Shown here: positions 6,533 to 45,891 of the stretch, one piece after another
Layout of the letters: every line of letters starts with the position of its first letter
How positions within the stretch are numbered: the first letter of the stretch is position 1
From: Acinetobacter sp. A47
GTDB lineage: Bacteria > Pseudomonadota > Gammaproteobacteria > Pseudomonadales > Moraxellaceae
Direction of reading: 5' to 3'
NCBI RefSeq assembly: GCF_000805455.1
Contig: NZ_JSUS01000071.1
Location: 434,001-498,000 of the forward strand
DNA: 64,000 bases
Translations under genes and position numbers: made by a program
Notes under the pieces: model-generated
Told to the model about the DNA's origin: nothing
The model's input: only the letters and a program-made list of their open reading frames with translations
The model's database searches: none

Positions 6533-6549
6533 GCCCGGGAAATTAAACC

Positions 6550-37785: not shown

Positions 37786-38706
37786 TTAATACAATACCGA
37801 GTTCTGCTGTTTCAGCCCGGCAAACTTTTTGACCAGAAAATCGATCAATAATTTCATCGATGGCAGTAGTCCACGTCTGGAGGTATACACCAGATGGATC
37901 AGCTCAGGCTTGGGTTGCCATTCGGGCAAAACATGAATCAGGCGGCCCTGTCTGATATCCTCGGCCACCATCAGTTCCGGCAATTTTGCCACGCCCAGAC
38001 CTTGCAAGGTAGCTTCCCTAAGCGCAGTCAGATCGGTGGTGGTCAGTCGTGGATGACACTGTACTTTCAGTTCCTTTTCATCTTGCGAAAATAATTGCCA
38101 ATGATATTCAGGTGCAAAGGATTCCATCATCAACACCGGAAATTGTGTTAACTGCTGCGGTTCAGTAATCGAATAAAACTGATGTAACAGGTCTGGGCTG
38201 GCCACAATAAACTGCCGTGCCAGTGCCAGCTCCCGCACAATCAAATCACTGTCTGCCAGAGGCAAAGGCCGGATGCGTACCGCCAGGTCAAAACGTTCGT
38301 TGATCAAATCTACACGGCGATTGGTGGCTTCCACATGCAGACTGATCTTGGGATATAGCTGCAAAAACTCGTTCAGCATCTGGCTAAGATTGATATGTAA
38401 TAAATTGGTCGGACAAGACAATTTGATCAGTCCACGCGGCTCCGCAGTTAAAAACTCGATAGCCTCCTCGGCGGCCTCAGCTTCAATCAACATGGCCTTG
38501 CAATGCTGGTAATAGATTTTCCCGACCTCGGTAATCGAGACCTGTCGGGTGGTCCGGTTGATCAGCTTGACTCCGAGACGTTCCTCCAGCTCGGCAATGC
38601 GGCGGCTCAATAAGGATTTGGTGACCATCAGTTCCTGACTGGCAGCAGAAAAACCACCGCAATCGATGACTTTGACAAAGAAATATAAGTCATTTAAATC
38701 TTTCAT
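37786..38706 (-). CDS. LysR-family transcriptional regulator, copy B
   Basis: 306 residues. The N-terminal helix-turn-helix, F-S-A-A-S-Q-E-L-M-V-T-K-S-L-L-S-R-R-I, and much of the sensor domain align with copy A at 36851-37777, so the two are related. It is divergent from the hydrolase at 38843 with a 136-base gap, the classic layout for a LysR regulator and its target. Confidence 0.92.
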   Translation of the reverse strand: MKDLNDLYFFVKVIDCGGFSAASQELMVTKSLLSRRIAELEERLGVKLINRTTRQVSITEVGKIYYQHCKAMLIEAEAAEEAIEFLTAEPRGLIKLSCPTNLLHINLSQMLNEFLQLYPKISLHVEATNRRVDLINERFDLAVRIRPLPLADSDLIVRELALARQFIVASPDLLHQFYSITEPQQLTQFPVLMMESFAPEYHWQLFSQDEKELKVQCHPRLTTTDLTALREATLQGLGVAKLPELMVAEDIRQGRLIHVLPEWQPKPELIHLVYTSRRGLLPSMKLLIDFLVKKFAGLKQQNSVLY

Positions 38707-39629: not shown

Positions 39630-41078
39630 TTATTCAGATAAATCCACACACAGATATTTCATTTCGGTATATTCCTCAATACCGAATTTTGAACCTTCAC
39701 GGCCTAAGCCTGACTGTTTCACCCCACCAAAAGGTGCAACTTCATTGGAAATCGCACCGGTATTGATGCCGACCATGCCGTATTCCAGTGCTTCACCGAC
39801 TCGCCATTGACGGGCCGTACTCTGGGTAAATAAATACGCTGCCAGACCAAACTCGGTATCGTTCGCCATCGCTACCGCTTCATCTTCAGTTTTAAAACGG
39901 AATAAAGGTGCCAGCGGCCCGAAGGTTTCTTCTTTAGACACCTTCATGTCCTGGGTGACCCCCGTCAATACGGTCGGTTCAAAGAAAGTGCCACCTAAAG
40001 CCGAACGTTGTCCACCAATACGTAGCGTTGCCCCTTTGGCAGTTGCATCAGCAATATGCGACTGGACTTTGGCAATCGCATCTTCATCAATCAGTGGCCC
40101 CTGGGTTGAACCTTCCTGACGGCCATCGCCCACTTTCAACTTAGACACCGCTTCCACCAGACGATCTGCCAAAGCATCGTAAATACCATCTTGCACATAA
40201 ATACGATTGGCACATACACAGGTCTGACCGCTATTGCGGTATTTGCTGGCCATAATGCCCTGCACGGCCTGCTCGAGGTTGGCATCATCAAATACCAGTA
40301 CTGGCGCATTTCCACCTAGCTCAAGTGAAAGCTTTTTGATGCTTGGTGCACATTGCTGCATCAAGATACGACCGACCTGGGTTGAACCGGTGAAGCTAAG
40401 CTTACGCACAATATCGCTTTCGCATAAGGTTTTGCCGACTTCAACCGCATCACCGCTGATATTGATTAAAAGATCGACAGGCAAGCCAGCCTGTAAAGCC
40501 AAGACTTCAAGCGCATAAGCGGTTAATGGGGTCTGCTCTGCAGGTTTGACCAGCATGCTACAGCCAGCCGCAAGCGCAGGAGCTGCCTTACGGGTAATCA
40601 TCGCTGCCGGAAAATTCCACGGCGTAATGGCCGCAGTCACCCCAATCGCCTGTTTAATCACCAGTAAACGCTGGTTCGGCTGGGTAGATGTTAAAACTTC
40701 ACCATCGATACGGCGTGCCTGCTCGGCGAACCAGCGAATAAAAGAGGCTGCATAGGCAATTTCACCCCGGGCTTCAGCCAGCGGCTTACCTTGTTCAGCA
40801 GTTAAAATCTGTGCCAGATTTTCCTTATGCTCAAGCATCAGGTTATACCAGGCCAACAACACATCGGCGCGCGCCAGTGCAGTTTGCTTTTTCCAGGCAG
40901 CCTGAGCCTGGGCAGAACGCTGGATTGCCGCATCAACGGCTACACGGTCATAGGTTTTGACCCATGCCAGCGTTTCGCCTGTTGCTGCATCTTGAACCTC
41001 AATATAGTCATTTGATGCAGGCTGATGAAATGCAATATCGGGATGTTTTAAAAGATACTGCAAATTGTCTTGAATCAT
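39630..41078 (-). CDS. gabD: GabD, succinate-semialdehyde dehydrogenase
   Basis: 482 residues of the aldehyde dehydrogenase fold. General base Glu253 (L-E-L-G-G-N-A-P) and nucleophile Cys287 (G-Q-T-C-V-C-A-N-R) are in place, and the NAD(P) motif T-P-W-N-F-P-A-A is near residue 155. The second Cys two residues after the nucleophile is typical of redox-controlled GabD enzymes. It oxidises succinate semialdehyde to succinate, the last step of GABA breakdown. The start overlaps the stop of gabT by four bases (ATGA). Confidence 0.95.
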   Translation of the reverse strand: MIQDNLQYLLKHPDIAFHQPASNDYIEVQDAATGETLAWVKTYDRVAVDAAIQRSAQAQAAWKKQTALARADVLLAWYNLMLEHKENLAQILTAEQGKPLAEARGEIAYAASFIRWFAEQARRIDGEVLTSTQPNQRLLVIKQAIGVTAAITPWNFPAAMITRKAAPALAAGCSMLVKPAEQTPLTAYALEVLALQAGLPVDLLINISGDAVEVGKTLCESDIVRKLSFTGSTQVGRILMQQCAPSIKKLSLELGGNAPVLVFDDANLEQAVQGIMASKYRNSGQTCVCANRIYVQDGIYDALADRLVEAVSKLKVGDGRQEGSTQGPLIDEDAIAKVQSHIADATAKGATLRIGGQRSALGGTFFEPTVLTGVTQDMKVSKEETFGPLAPLFRFKTEDEAVAMANDTEFGLAAYLFTQSTARQWRVGEALEYGMVGINTGAISNEVAPFGGVKQSGLGREGSKFGIEEYTEMKYLCVDLSE

Positions 41079-42367
41079 GCAGGTTGCTCCATTGCTGTTA
41101 GGCGACTTGTTTCTAGCGCCACAAAACCTTGTTTCAAGATCTCCAGACCCTGACGGAATTGTGCGGTAGGAATCGTTAATGGGTATAAGAAACGAATGAC
41201 ATTACCGTATTTACCACAAGTCAGAAGTAACAAGCCATTCTCCATTGCAGCGTTTTGTACAGCTTTTGCTTGTTCTGCTGTTTCCAGCTCAACTGCCACC
41301 ATGGAACCCAGAGCACGAATATCCGTGACCACATCACCTGATGCCTGCTGAATTTCTTTCAGCGTCGCCACCAGCTCGGCACCCAGTTCATTGGCACGCT
41401 CACATAGCTGTTCTTCTTCAATCGCGTCAATAACTGCATGGGCTGCAGCAACCGCAATCGGGTTACCGGCATAAGTCCCGCCCAGACCACCCGGATTTGG
41501 CGCATCCATGACTTCTGCACGCCCGACTACACCTGAAATCGGGAAACCGCCACCCAGGCTTTTTGCCATGGTGATCAGATCGGCCTTGGTCTCGAAATGG
41601 TCCATGGCAAACAGTTTGCCAGTCCGGGCAAAACCGGTTTGCACTTCATCGGCCACCAGCAAAATACCATGCTTGTCACATAAGGCACGTAAACGTTTCA
41701 GGAAATCGGCAGGCACCACGTTGAAACCGCCTTCTCCCTGGACAGGTTCCAGAACAATCGCCGCGACATCATGCGGGGCAACATCTTCACTAAAAATATC
41801 TTCAACACTGGCAATAGCGGCCTCTACACTAATGCCCTTGGCCGGTACAGGATAACGCGCATGGAACACACCCGCTGGCATCACTCCGAAATCGCGTTTG
41901 TAAGGCGCTGTCTTACCGGTCATGGCCATGGTCATGAAAGAGCGTCCATGGAATCCGTTACCAAAGGTAATAATGCCATGACGGCCAGTATAACAACGGG
42001 CAATCTTCACCGCATTTTCAACTGCTTCTGCACCCGTGGTAAAAAAAGCAGACTTGGCAGCACCGGCAATTGGAGCACGTTCATTAATCCGCTCTGCCAG
42101 CGCCACATAACTTTCGTAAGGCGTGACCTGATAAGCCGTGTGGGTAAACTTTGTCAGTTGCTCAGTCACCGCAGCAATCACTTTGGGATGACGATGACCG
42201 GTATTGAGCACTGCAATGCCACCTGCAAAATCGATGAAAGCATTGCCATCCTTGTCCCAGATTGTGGCATTTTCCGCTTTTGCTGCATACCACTGGCACA
42301 TTACGCCCACACCACGTGGAGTGGCTTGCTGTTTACGTGTGTTAAGTGCAGAATGTTGAGCGTTCAT
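41075..42367 (-). CDS. gabT: GabT, 4-aminobutyrate aminotransferase
   Basis: 430 residues, class III PLP aminotransferase. Lys269 in M-A-K-S-L-G-G-G binds PLP; the L-V-A-D-E-V-Q-T-G-F-A-R-T-G motif carries the PLP-contacting Asp. It turns GABA and 2-oxoglutarate into succinate semialdehyde and glutamate. GAGGGA precedes the ATG. It is first in the gabT-gabD operon and divergent from the regulator gene, with an operator-like repeat between them. Confidence 0.95.
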   Translation of the reverse strand: MNAQHSALNTRKQQATPRGVGVMCQWYAAKAENATIWDKDGNAFIDFAGGIAVLNTGHRHPKVIAAVTEQLTKFTHTAYQVTPYESYVALAERINERAPIAGAAKSAFFTTGAEAVENAVKIARCYTGRHGIITFGNGFHGRSFMTMAMTGKTAPYKRDFGVMPAGVFHARYPVPAKGISVEAAIASVEDIFSEDVAPHDVAAIVLEPVQGEGGFNVVPADFLKRLRALCDKHGILLVADEVQTGFARTGKLFAMDHFETKADLITMAKSLGGGFPISGVVGRAEVMDAPNPGGLGGTYAGNPIAVAAAHAVIDAIEEEQLCERANELGAELVATLKEIQQASGDVVTDIRALGSMVAVELETAEQAKAVQNAAMENGLLLLTCGKYGNVIRFLYPLTIPTAQFRQGLEILKQGFVALETSRLTAMEQPA

Positions 42368-42488
42368 TTAATTCCCTCATATTTTCATCATCTATTACAG
42401 CGTTGCCCGACATCCAGCTTGATTTTTTCTGGGATGTTTTACAATGACTGTCTATAGCTGTAATTTCGCGCGTATGAAGGCCAGTGAC

Positions 42489-42524
42489 GAGAGCCACTTT
42501 TAAATTGAAGGAGAGAGCCAATTG
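42489..42524. promoter_or_regulatory. Predicted GabR-type operator in front of gabR
   Basis: Direct repeat GAGAGCCA at 42489-42496 and 42513-42520, start-to-start 24 bases, followed by ATTGC. The second repeat overlaps the ribosome site and touches the TTG start of the regulator. The same arrangement recurs 190 bases upstream of gabP. MocR-type regulators bind direct repeats, so self-control is likely; binding is inferred. Confidence 0.6.
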
Positions 42525-44021
42525 CGTAGTTTACTTGGAGACCATTTATTACAACGTCTCCAACAGGACATGGAAGGAAAACTACATCAACGTCTGTTTC
42601 GCTGTTTACGCGGGGCGATCATCGAAGGCGTGATCCAGCCCAAAACGCGTTTACCGGCTTCACGCGATTTAGCCAGTGAAATTCATGTTTCCCGTAATAC
42701 GGTGCTTTCAGCCTATGAACAGCTTCAGGCTGAAGGCTATCTGGAGGCACGTACCGGACATGGCACCTGGGTGGCCGAGCAATTGCCTGAAGCCTTTTTA
42801 AATACCAAGACAGATAAAAAGCTTGCTCCCCTCACCCGGCAGGAAACTTCTTTTGCCCTGTCCCAGCGCGGTTCAAGCTTGCTCGGTTATGCCGCTGCCT
42901 CACCGCATCAATGGGGGGCTTTTGTCCCGGGCGCACCCGATGTAACCGAATTTCCGCATCATATTTTCAGTCGCATACAGGCACGTCTTAGCCGTGAACC
43001 CGATATTAACCGGCTGATTTATAGCAGCGCAGGTGGCTGTATTGAATTGCGCAGCGCACTGGCTGACTATCTACGTGTGGCCCGTTCAGTACAATGTGAT
43101 GCGGACCAGATTATTATTACCGAGGGTATTCATCAGGCCATCGATCTGGTTTCACGGGCGCTCAGTGATATCGGTGACCGTGTCTGGATTGAAGACCCGG
43201 CCTATTGGGGCATGCGCAACACGCTCAGGATCAATGGACTGGATATTCAGCCCATGCCGGTTGATGCTGAAGGCATTATTCCGGAACAGCAGCCTGCCGA
43301 GCCGCCCAAACTGATTTTTGTGACGCCATCTCATCAGTATCCCCTCGGTTCGCATTTAAGTCTGGACAGAAGAAAACAGCTGATCCAGATCGCGCGTCAG
43401 CATCACAGCTGGATTGTAGAAGATGATTATGACAGTGAATTCCGCTTCTCGGGCCAGCCTTATCCTTCACTGCAAGGTCTGGAAAATGATGCGCCCGTGA
43501 TTTATATGGGCACCTTCAGTAAAACCATTTATCCGTCTTTACGGATTGGTTATGTGGTGGTACCTAAACCGCTGTTTTCGCCATTACGGATTGTGGCAGC
43601 GGAGTTATACCGGGGTGGACATCTGCTGGAACAAAAAGCCTTGGCCGAGTTTATCCGTGAAGGCCATTATGAAGCACATATCCGTCGTATGCGTTTGCTC
43701 TATGGCAAACGACGCGATTATCTGGTCAGCCTGATTAATCGCTATCTGGGAGCAGCGTTTTTGCATGAGTATGATGAAGCAGCAGGCTTACATCTGGTAC
43801 TTAAACTGCCTGCCCACTGTGACGATGTCGCCATTGCTGCCACGGCGCTGGAACGTGGTGTCAAGGTGCGTGCCCTGTCACAATATTATATGCACTCTCA
43901 TGCACACGCCCAGCGCGGACTGTTGCTGGGCTTTGCCTGTGTCAATGAAAAAGACATGGTGATGGCCTTTGGTGTGTTATTGCAATGCCTACGCGAAGCC
44001 GGGGTGACCACATTGCCTTGA
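42522..44021 (+). CDS. gabR: MocR/GabR-type regulator of GABA catabolism
   Basis: 499 residues from a TTG start preceded by AAGGAGAG. The N-terminal GntR-type winged helix (about 20-85, L-P-A-S-R-D-L-A and S-R-N-T-V-L-S-A-Y) is joined to a class I aminotransferase-like domain (about 125-495). PLP-binding Lys334 lies in G-T-F-S-K-T-I-Y-P-S-L-R. In GabR the aminotransferase fold senses GABA through PLP and turns on gabT-gabD. The divergent gabT and the shared operator motif support this here, though PdxR-like regulators look similar. Confidence 0.85.
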   Translation: MRSLLGDHLLQRLQQDMEGKLHQRLFRCLRGAIIEGVIQPKTRLPASRDLASEIHVSRNTVLSAYEQLQAEGYLEARTGHGTWVAEQLPEAFLNTKTDKKLAPLTRQETSFALSQRGSSLLGYAAASPHQWGAFVPGAPDVTEFPHHIFSRIQARLSREPDINRLIYSSAGGCIELRSALADYLRVARSVQCDADQIIITEGIHQAIDLVSRALSDIGDRVWIEDPAYWGMRNTLRINGLDIQPMPVDAEGIIPEQQPAEPPKLIFVTPSHQYPLGSHLSLDRRKQLIQIARQHHSWIVEDDYDSEFRFSGQPYPSLQGLENDAPVIYMGTFSKTIYPSLRIGYVVVPKPLFSPLRIVAAELYRGGHLLEQKALAEFIREGHYEAHIRRMRLLYGKRRDYLVSLINRYLGAAFLHEYDEAAGLHLVLKLPAHCDDVAIAATALERGVKVRALSQYYMHSHAHAQRGLLLGFACVNEKDMVMAFGVLLQCLREAGVTTLP

Positions 44022-44033
44022 ACAAAAATGAAA

Positions 44034-44064
44034 CATGGAGAATCTCCGTCGCGAGATACTCCAT
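44034..44064. terminator. Hairpin between gabR and gabP
   Basis: Stem CATGGAG-aa-TCTC pairs with GAGA-ta-CTCCATG around a six-base loop, T-rich on the leftward side. It lies between convergent gabR and gabP and could end both. Confidence 0.6.
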
Positions 44065-44091
44065 GCTTTAAAAATATTCCTTGATGGGTGC

Positions 44092-45525
44092 TCAGATCGA
44101 CTGTTTTTCCTGTACCAAGGTATTTTTCCCGAGTTTTCCTTTACTCAGTTTCTGTACCAGCATTCCCACCAGTACAATCGCCAAGGCCAGCATGGAAGTA
44201 TAGGTTACTTCTTTAAAATAAGTCCCCTCGATCAGCATGACCAGCAATGAACCGATAATGATAAAAATCACGGCATACGTCATCCATGGGAAACACCACA
44301 TTTTAAAATCAATCTGCTTGCCTTCGCGCTGGTATTGCTTACGCATCCGCAATTGTGAACAGGCAATCGCCAAATACACATACAGGGCAACCGTACCTGT
44401 TGCCATCATCAGTACATCATAGACATTCATGCTTTCGGTTGCGGTTAAATATACGGCGACAATGGCAAACAGGCTGGAAAATAAAACCCCGATCCACGGA
44501 CTGCCCTGACGGTTGGTTAGCGCCAGACATTGAGGTGCATCGCCCCGTCTGGAAAGTGAAAATAGCATACGCGAACAGGTGTACAGCGCCGAGTTAAAAC
44601 AGCTACATACCGAGGTGAGCACCACGAAATTGACAATATGACGTGCTTCGGGAATGCCCAGTGCGGTCAGGGTGACACTATAGGTGCCCCAGGTCGGATC
44701 TTTTAATAAGGGATTGTCATGTGGAATAAGACAGACGGTAATTAGCATGGAGCCGACATAAAACAATAAAATCCGCCAGACCACCGAATTAGACGCTTTA
44801 CGAATCTCTTTTTCAGGGCTTTTTGCTTCAGCAGCAGCAACTGTGACAATTTCGGCACCGACATAGGCAAACATCACCCCGAGTAAGGCAGTAATCACCG
44901 GTGCAATACCATTGGGCATGAATTCTTGCTGTAGCAGGCCGGCGGAACCTGTTTGGGCAAGTTCACCCCAAGGCCATAGATGAAAGATGGCTAAGCTGCC
45001 AATGACCAGAAAGATGATGATCGCCACCACCTTGATCAGGGCAAACCAGAACTCGAATTCACCATAGCTTTTGACATCTTTCAGGTTAACCCAGATCAGG
45101 GACACAATCACCAGTAGCATATAGCCCCAGATCGGGATAAAAGGAAACCAGCTATTTAAGATCTTGCCTGCAACATAGGCCTCCCATCCCATCAACAGGG
45201 TCCAGAAACACCAGTACAGCCAGCCTATGGAAAACCCGGCCCAGCGTCCAATGGCACGGTCTGCGTAGGTCGAAAATGACCCGCTATCCGGATTCAGTAC
45301 GGCCATTTCACCCAGCATACGCATAATGAAAAGTACCAGCAAACCACCTAAGGCATAGGCCAGGATCACTGCTGGCCCGGCAGCATAAATAACATTGCCC
45401 GAGCCGACAAACAGGGCACCACCAATGACGCCGGCAATCGAGATCATGGTCAGATGACGTGACTTCAAGCCACTTTTTAAGCCTTGTGCATGGCTGGCAT
45501 TAGAATGTTCGGGGGTTGATATCAT
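44092..45525 (-). CDS. gabP: GABA permease (APC family, GabP-like)
   Basis: 477 residues with twelve membrane segments. The start is typical of amino acid permeases of the GabP/AnsP group: L-K-S-R-H-L-T-M-I-S-I-A-G-V-I-G-G-A-L-F-V-G-S-G. GABA rather than another amino acid is inferred from the gab genes beside it and from the shared operator motif. AAGGAAG precedes the ATG. Confidence 0.88.
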   Translation of the reverse strand: MISTPEHSNASHAQGLKSGLKSRHLTMISIAGVIGGALFVGSGNVIYAAGPAVILAYALGGLLVLFIMRMLGEMAVLNPDSGSFSTYADRAIGRWAGFSIGWLYWCFWTLLMGWEAYVAGKILNSWFPFIPIWGYMLLVIVSLIWVNLKDVKSYGEFEFWFALIKVVAIIIFLVIGSLAIFHLWPWGELAQTGSAGLLQQEFMPNGIAPVITALLGVMFAYVGAEIVTVAAAEAKSPEKEIRKASNSVVWRILLFYVGSMLITVCLIPHDNPLLKDPTWGTYSVTLTALGIPEARHIVNFVVLTSVCSCFNSALYTCSRMLFSLSRRGDAPQCLALTNRQGSPWIGVLFSSLFAIVAVYLTATESMNVYDVLMMATGTVALYVYLAIACSQLRMRKQYQREGKQIDFKMWCFPWMTYAVIFIIIGSLLVMLIEGTYFKEVTYTSMLALAIVLVGMLVQKLSKGKLGKNTLVQEKQSI

Positions 45526-45891
45526 TATTATTCTTCCTTCTTTTGAGGCACATATCCCCTCTCCAGAACAAGCTGTTCCAAAGGGGCAAATATGCTCTAA
45601 ACAGCTAGTCGTTTTTATGCATCATCCATGTCTGAATATTGATATGACTTAAGCGACGGCTTCCGTATGCATAGCTCTGATACAGTTAATGTGTCGGTTC
45701 AAAAGCCAAGAAACGAGAGCCATTTTGACGATCAGGAAGGGAGCCAATTGCAGGATTTCTGTCCTATTGCAGAGACAGTGAAAGACGGGCACTTAAAAAA
45801 TATGACAACCTGTTTTCAAATCGGGCCGCCGAATAAGTGACACCATAACTATGCCCAGCTGACCCAGCTTTTTTAGCCGAACCAAGCCAAT
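45526..45891. promoter_or_regulatory. gabP upstream region with a GabR-type operator at 45715-45746
   Basis: GAGAGCCA at 45715-45722 and GGGAGCCA at 45739-45746 are again 24 bases apart and again followed by ATTGC. AGGAAGGGAGCCAATTG also recreates a ribosome site plus a TTG; the frame opened there runs only 30 codons, to a TGA near 45838, with no clear similarity. It may be a relic of a duplicated regulator gene or simply the operator. The rest of the region up to gabP shows no gene. Confidence 0.55.

Follow-up and report, generated by a model that had tools for sequence, protein, structure and literature searches.

The stretch of DNA analysed here (64,000 nucleotides of Acinetobacter sp. A47, called the window below) carries a cluster of gab genes for the use of gamma-aminobutyrate (GABA), in which one direct repeat stands at two places: between gabT and the regulator gene gabR, and upstream of the permease gene gabP. 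The genes and the sequence elements discussed in this work are the following.

39630-41078, reverse strand: gabD, succinate-semialdehyde dehydrogenase (TIGR01780, 693 bits, cut-off 646)
41075-42367, reverse strand: gabT, GABA transaminase (TIGR00700, 575 bits, cut-off 507)
42461-42469, no strand assigned: TAATTTCGC element, starting 28 bp before box 1, an offset conserved at Acinetobacter gabT and gabP sites
42489-42496, forward strand: predicted operator box 1, GAGAGCCA, gabT/gabR site
42509-42513, forward strand: AGGAG, Shine-Dalgarno-like, 8 nt before the TTG codon and sharing the first base of box 2
42513-42520, forward strand: predicted operator box 2, GAGAGCCA, gabT/gabR site, 1 nt from the gabR start codon
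42522-44021, forward strand: gabR, MocR-type regulator with a TTG start (PF00392, 53 bits; PF00155, 97 bits)
44092-45525, reverse strand: gabP, GABA permease family (PF00324; best NCBIfam match TIGR01773)
45687-45695, no strand assigned: TAATGTGTC element, gabP site, starting 28 bp before box 1
45715-45722, forward strand: predicted operator box 1, GAGAGCCA, gabP site
45739-45746, forward strand: predicted operator box 2, GGGAGCCA, gabP site

The gabD and gabT genes overlap by 4 nt and likely form one operon. The gabP product scored 546 bits against the TIGR01773 GABA permease model, under its cut-off of 678, and the gabR product was matched by Bacillus subtilis GabR (4n0b) with an E value of 1.9e-53.

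The first site reads GAGAGCCA-N16-GAGAGCCA-ATTGC and the second GAGAGCCA-N16-GGGAGCCA-ATTGC; the letters, coordinates and spacing that an earlier note on this DNA had given for both proved exact on re-reading. The same note had placed the 42489 site at gabR, which is correct, but had overlooked its gabT/gabD side: the site lies inside the divergent gabT-gabR intergenic region, where box 1 starts 122 bp before gabT, and box 2 overlaps the gabR ribosome-binding region, with a single nucleotide between its end and the TTG start. At the other site, which is antiparallel to gabP, box 1 starts 190 bp before that gene. Both sites also have a TAAT[TG]T element, which begins at 42461 and at 45687, in each case 28 bp ahead of box 1. 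When the window was searched with a strict pattern (GRGAGCCA-N14..18-GRGAGCCA, with the reversed pattern as control), two matches were found as compared with none in 100 dinucleotide-preserving shuffles. In the whole genome (3,913,495 bases) the same two were the only matches, although spacers of 14-18 were allowed, and the control gave none. With up to three mismatches over the 21 fixed letters no third site appeared in the whole genome, and the reversed pattern yielded one. The shuffles, the genome counts and the reversed-box controls thus rule out a chance origin of the repeat pair, which by its sequence features is to be regarded as a genuine, conserved operator.

Conservation was assessed in a sample of 99 Acinetobacter genomes, the window's own included. 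The strict repeat gave 65 matches in 44 genomes, 64 with a spacer of 16 and one with 15 although 14-18 were allowed, whereas the reversed pattern matched once in one genome. All 65 matches fall within gab loci. GabR orthologues (at least 57% identity) were found in 53 of the 99 genomes, among them all 44 with the strict repeat, and in the 46 genomes without gabR the repeat was not detected. The earlier note had proposed a motif search across Acinetobacter, with absence of the repeat from relatives as the refuting outcome; the repeat was found conserved, in its strict form in 44 of the 99 genomes. A scan of the family located it in 47 of 91 members of the genus and in none of 158 other Moraxellaceae, in which gabR presence was not examined (control, one match).

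To the window's gab locus were added those of the 52 other genomes, giving 53 loci and 588,804 bases; they hold 65 strict matches in 44 loci, equal to the numbers of the genus search. A relaxed score was also used, counting the letters matched of the 16 box letters with a spacer of 15 or 16. At 14 or more, there were 106 matches in these bases and none for the reversed box, whereas at exactly 13 there were 8 versus 16 for the control, so that a score of 13 alone means little. Sites scoring at least 13 accompany gabR in 49 of the 53 genomes (48 at 14 or more) and lie upstream of gabT in 52 (48 at 14 or more). For gabP orthologues (at least 72% identity), a site within 330 bp upstream was present in 38 of 41, always at 14 or more, and for the gabP genes of loci L079 and L086 the site lies farther off, about 500 bp upstream. 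The per-gene count reached 330 bp upstream; the permease sites farther out in L079, L082, L086 and L112 come from the whole-locus scan.

Related species do not contribute independent gab loci to these counts. For the column and offset analyses sites were clustered at 85%, leaving 26 gabT and 24 gabP clusters. In these, both boxes and their tails are conserved blocks, most of the spacer is variable, and a further conserved block starts 28 bp before box 1. A permissive pattern for this TAATTTGTCG block was found at -28 in 19/26 gabT and 23/24 gabP clusters, in 5/5 clusters of 24-bp sites from other bacteria and also in 13/22 clusters of 23-bp sites (see below). The block was considered as an inverted half site and rejected, as TAATTTGTCG matches the box only in part and its offset is unlike that of the TGG box of relatives. 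It may be contacted by GabR or may belong to the promoter of the target gene; for TAATTTCGC in the window this would mean a third contact or a piece of the gabT promoter.

At gabR, the gap between box 2 and the start codon is 1 nt in 48 of the 49 scored sites and 2 nt in one. Because box 2 abuts the start, the ATTGC tail there is also the start codon and the beginning of the second codon; ATT of the tail is kept at most gabP sites as well, where no gene starts. GGA stands immediately 5' of box 2 in 49/49 scored gabR sites and in 5/39 scored gabP sites, and in the window it is part of the Shine-Dalgarno-like AGGAG. It could be argued that the gabR copy is conserved solely as a ribosome-binding site and start codon to which no protein binds, as box 2 coincides with these signals in all 49 scored sites. 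The same boxes, however, occur at gabP sites and at sites serving gabT only, where no gene starts, and box 1, located 24 bp upstream, is equally conserved, which makes this explanation scarcely credible when compared with a protein-bound operator.

Rearranged loci show what the repeat stays with. In 15 genomes gabT and gabR have no common intergenic region, and in 13 of these (12 by the stricter score) each gene has retained a site: loci L093-L095, L097, L098 and L100-L106, and genome G014 (through L090 and L138). In L095 the gabT and gabR sites both score only 13. The two exceptions are G094, with a site at gabT only (score 13), and G073, with a site at neither gene. The gabP orthologue is inverted in 12 genomes (L093-L095, L097, L098, L100-L106), and in 12/12 the site has turned along with it, so that it is still upstream of, and antiparallel to, gabP, the same as to gabT. 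Among three gabP orthologues unlinked to gabR, two keep the site, both at score 14 (in G017 at a distance of about 1.25 Mb, in G098 on a separate contig); that of G026 has none. No site was found at the 53% identical gabP-like genes of L113 and L114, which lie on the gabR strand, at a 51% paralogue in G020 or at the 52-53% gabP-like gene of G093, a genome without gabR. These rearrangements bear on the view that the gabP copy is a functionless relic of a duplicated gabR leader, which would explain why the boxes, the ATTGC tail and the -28 element are common to both sites. A relic would hardly retain its boxes between genomes while spacer and flank diverge, turn with an inverted gabP, persist at two unlinked gabP genes or stand before other permeases (L096 12047, L091 5981), and we consider this view very unlikely.

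Several further features of these loci are recorded here (positions in oriented coordinates). In the A. kookii group, glutamate dehydrogenase and porin-like genes lie between gabT and gabR (L097 4089-6687, L093, L138), and the gabT side and the gabR side each keep an operator; the gabR-side operator also faces gdh in L097 and L093, while in L103 gdh alone was seen. Both genes probably belong to the regulon as well. A permease for amino acids in G020, distant from GabP (L096 10315-11796), has a site 251 bp upstream (12047), and another match, at 6533, lies between gabR and an aldehyde dehydrogenase gene. A nitrilase-superfamily gene of A. piscicola has a relaxed site in front of it (L146 1835). 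L079 (6574, 9099) and L086 (6580, 9108) have adjacent gabP paralogues (51% and 75%), each with an operator, about 420 and 500 bp upstream. One in-frame stop is reported in gabR of G076 (L088/L059) and one in gabT of G020 (G020:C7:287810-289069); the operators of both are intact. In G017 the gabP, ycaC and ssb genes of L131 are 89-94% identical to the window's, the genome's gabR, about 1.25 Mb off, is 69% identical, and gabP retains a diverged operator of two AAGAGCCA boxes; the gab cluster of this genome may have been lost and replaced. The variant box GAGTACCA, common to the gabR and the unlinked gabP sites of G098, was looked at as a case of co-variation and judged only suggestive, because the recognition helix is unchanged and GAGTACCA also occurs in Enterobacteriaceae.

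Outside the genus, the best 80 of 595 loci from a scan of named genomes were compared, 64 of them not from Acinetobacter; records near the window may be missing from this set. In 45 of the 64 the gabR start codon (TTG 32, ATG 12, GTG 1) is preceded, at a distance of 0-4 nt, by a CCA box; these 45 are all of L154-L198, with GabR proteins 52-71% identical. A second box was found in 43 of the 45, at 23 bp in 37 and at 24 bp in six, and in several Enterobacteriaceae with a related GabR box 1 is GAGTACCA. The Enterobacterales and Burkholderiales relatives mostly show the published layout, in which the direct repeats are separated by 23 bp and accompanied by an inverted TGG box; in Acinetobacter and five Erwiniaceae the distance is 24 bp and an inverted box is not fixed. 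An inverted YGG occurs at -13 in 22/22 clusters of 23-bp sites from other bacteria, in agreement with the two direct boxes and one inverted box of PMC5320631; in Acinetobacter the best YGG offset is shared by only 7/26 and 8/24 clusters, and here a weaker inverted contact may exist or the element at -28 may take its place. In the 24-bp sites elsewhere (five clusters) YGG stays under a quarter at every offset, although L191, a metagenome-assembled genome, does carry TGG at -13. A GabR protein tree of 60 rows was built from the 45 loci L154-L198 and 15 Acinetobacter rows. One branch (100/100) gathers 16 of the 17 rows with 24-bp sites and the four diverged Acinetobacter rows, and not a single 23-bp row. 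Erwiniaceae fall on both sides of this split, each with the operator that matches its protein (Pantoea coffeiphila 23 bp; Ca. Pantoea varia, Mixta, Winslowiella and Erwinia 24 bp), which indicates that the operator follows the regulator. This change of layout along the GabR clades is the best evidence here that GabR is the protein that binds. The two layouts, 23 bp with an inverted box versus 24 bp without one, also constitute a natural series for testing how MocR dimers choose direct repeats.

In the gabR product the GntR winged helix (PF00392) covers residues 23-84 and the aminotransferase domain (PF00155) residues 163-457, both over the gathering score; this domain content places the protein in the MocR subfamily of GntR regulators. 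Residue comparisons (recognition helix, wing, pyridoxal 5'-phosphate (PLP) site and pocket) were made with L111-L114, L191, L193 and L196 set aside, leaving 54 rows of this group and 37 of the other. Y205, Y281, K312 and R319 of B. subtilis GabR align to Y228, Y303, K334 and R341, and the PLP-lysine and the PLP-site residues are invariant in all 91 rows. In Bacillus GabR, R207 and R430 are listed as contacts of the GABA carboxylate (PMC6917764, Table 2). The equivalent of R207 is G230 in 91/91 rows, and that of R430 is Q454 in 54/54 rows of this group and arginine in 35/37 of the other; W83, in the wing, and F26 also separate the two groups. The product scored 283 bits against the NCBIfam GABA_TF_GabR model (cut-off 600) and 429 bits against the PdxR equivalog model (cut-off 320), so that an automatic pipeline would probably label this regulator of GABA genes as PdxR. 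A PdxR identity by an operator at vitamin B6 genes was considered and discarded: the sites with up to three mismatches in the genome are two, both in the gab cluster. The present results let annotators correct this naming.

Taken together, these data make it highly probable that the two sites serve as operators for the GabR whose gene lies between them, and that this MocR-type protein binds both; it would repress its own gene and activate gabTD and gabP. In the earlier note one regulator had been proposed for the two sites, with GabR as the candidate, a proposal that is supported by the conservation in the genus and by a layout that changes with the GabR clade. The first operator would most likely act on gabT, with gabD, and the second on gabP. 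In the envisaged mechanism a head-to-tail MocR dimer would place one winged helix on each GAGAGCCANTT box, the boxes being 24 bp apart. The 42489-42520 site would serve two divergent genes, since it is upstream of gabTD, which it would control, and covers the gabR leader, ribosome-binding region and start, where bound GabR should block its own expression. The 45715-45746 site, upstream of gabP, has the same orientation toward its target as the site at gabT. If Bacillus GabR is taken as the model, the bound dimer would become an activator of gabTD and gabP through PLP bound at K334 together with an amino ligand, either GABA or an amine related to it.

A number of observations weigh against this assignment. 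Four diverged GabRs (L111-L114, 57-68%) have no scored site at gabR, nor have gabT of G073 and the gabP orthologue of G026 (a genome 9% contaminated), and one relaxed match (L096 6533) falls where the model predicts no site. Outside the genus, 19 of the 64 loci (GabR 46-53%) lack a box at the start codon, most of their alignments stopping short of residue 1. A search for a sigma-70 consensus promoter at both sites found none. The distance of 24 bp is no whole number of helical turns, unlike the rule given in PMC5320631. Both GABA-carboxylate arginines of Bacillus GabR are replaced here (G230, Q454); GabR-like working is therefore argued from context and operator, and not from the ligand pocket. 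Finally, gabT is present in the same 53 genomes as gabR, so that presence alone cannot single out GabR over another gab-linked factor, and the co-occurrence of motif and gabR is weakened as proof of GabR binding. This would suit binding by some other regulator of carbon or nitrogen use, of the LysR or NtrC type for example, with GabR as a mere neighbour, and a LysR gene does lie at 37786-38706, about 4 kb away. Yet gabR retains a copy once separated from gabT, the layout of the operator divides as the GabR tree does, Erwiniaceae being found in both parts, and a close relative (at least 81%) of the neighbouring LysR protein occurs in only two (L140, L152) of the 16 named Acinetobacter loci long enough to cover 5 kb upstream. 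A regulator other than GabR is therefore improbable. The GabR proteins of Acinetobacter and some Erwiniaceae might read DNA in a manner of their own, with two direct boxes at a distance of 24 bp, an AT-rich element at -28 in the absence of an inverted TGG box, and box 2 doubling as the ribosome-binding region of their own gene. They might also sense their ligand in a manner of their own, the effector being perhaps a different amine or GABA held differently. We put this idea forward tentatively; its ligand part is suggested by the replacement of both Bacillus carboxylate arginines, the second of which is consistently absent from this group.

The closest known systems are the GabR operators described by Suvorova and Rodionov in 2016 (PMC5320631), who predicted direct repeats and gabT, gabD and gabP targets for gammaproteobacterial GabR. 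The A47 locus resembles these in its MocR regulator, in its direct repeats at gabT/gabD and gabP with the regulator gene adjacent, and in the TGG (CCA) core common in MocR boxes. According to the same source the proteobacterial layout consists of two direct boxes and one inverted box; the Acinetobacter operators differ in that the boxes are 24 bp apart and inverted YGG occurs at no steady offset. Its main text does not mention Acinetobacter or Moraxell-; a figure and a supplement give the motif letters and the genomes used, and the genus may or may not belong to that set. A study of the Acinetobacter GabR operator was not found by title or abstract, in a search that most subscription papers lay outside. 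With TauR and PdxR, also of the MocR family, the sites would share binding of repeats by MocR proteins, but the motifs of those regulators (CTGGACYTAA and AAAGTGGW(-/T)CTA; PMC4494728) and their pathways are different. The B. subtilis GabR operator likewise has two direct repeats in a divergent gabR-gabTD region, and PMC9452892 and PMC6917764 describe autorepression and activation by a PLP-binding dimer; its boxes are ATACCA (PMC4494728), within 41 bp and with an inverted TGGTAC between them. The earlier note had stressed the difference from ATACCA, but the motif is less foreign than was thought, GAGTACCA being box 1 in several Enterobacteriaceae with a related GabR. PMC5320631 assigns Bacillus GabR to a separate group. 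The repeat described here, which for those members of the genus that carry gab genes (53 of the 99 sampled genomes) spells out an operator of GABA use that can be put to the test, is most likely a direct-repeat, 24-bp version of the published operator kind: judged by its sequence, the kind is known and the layout is its own.

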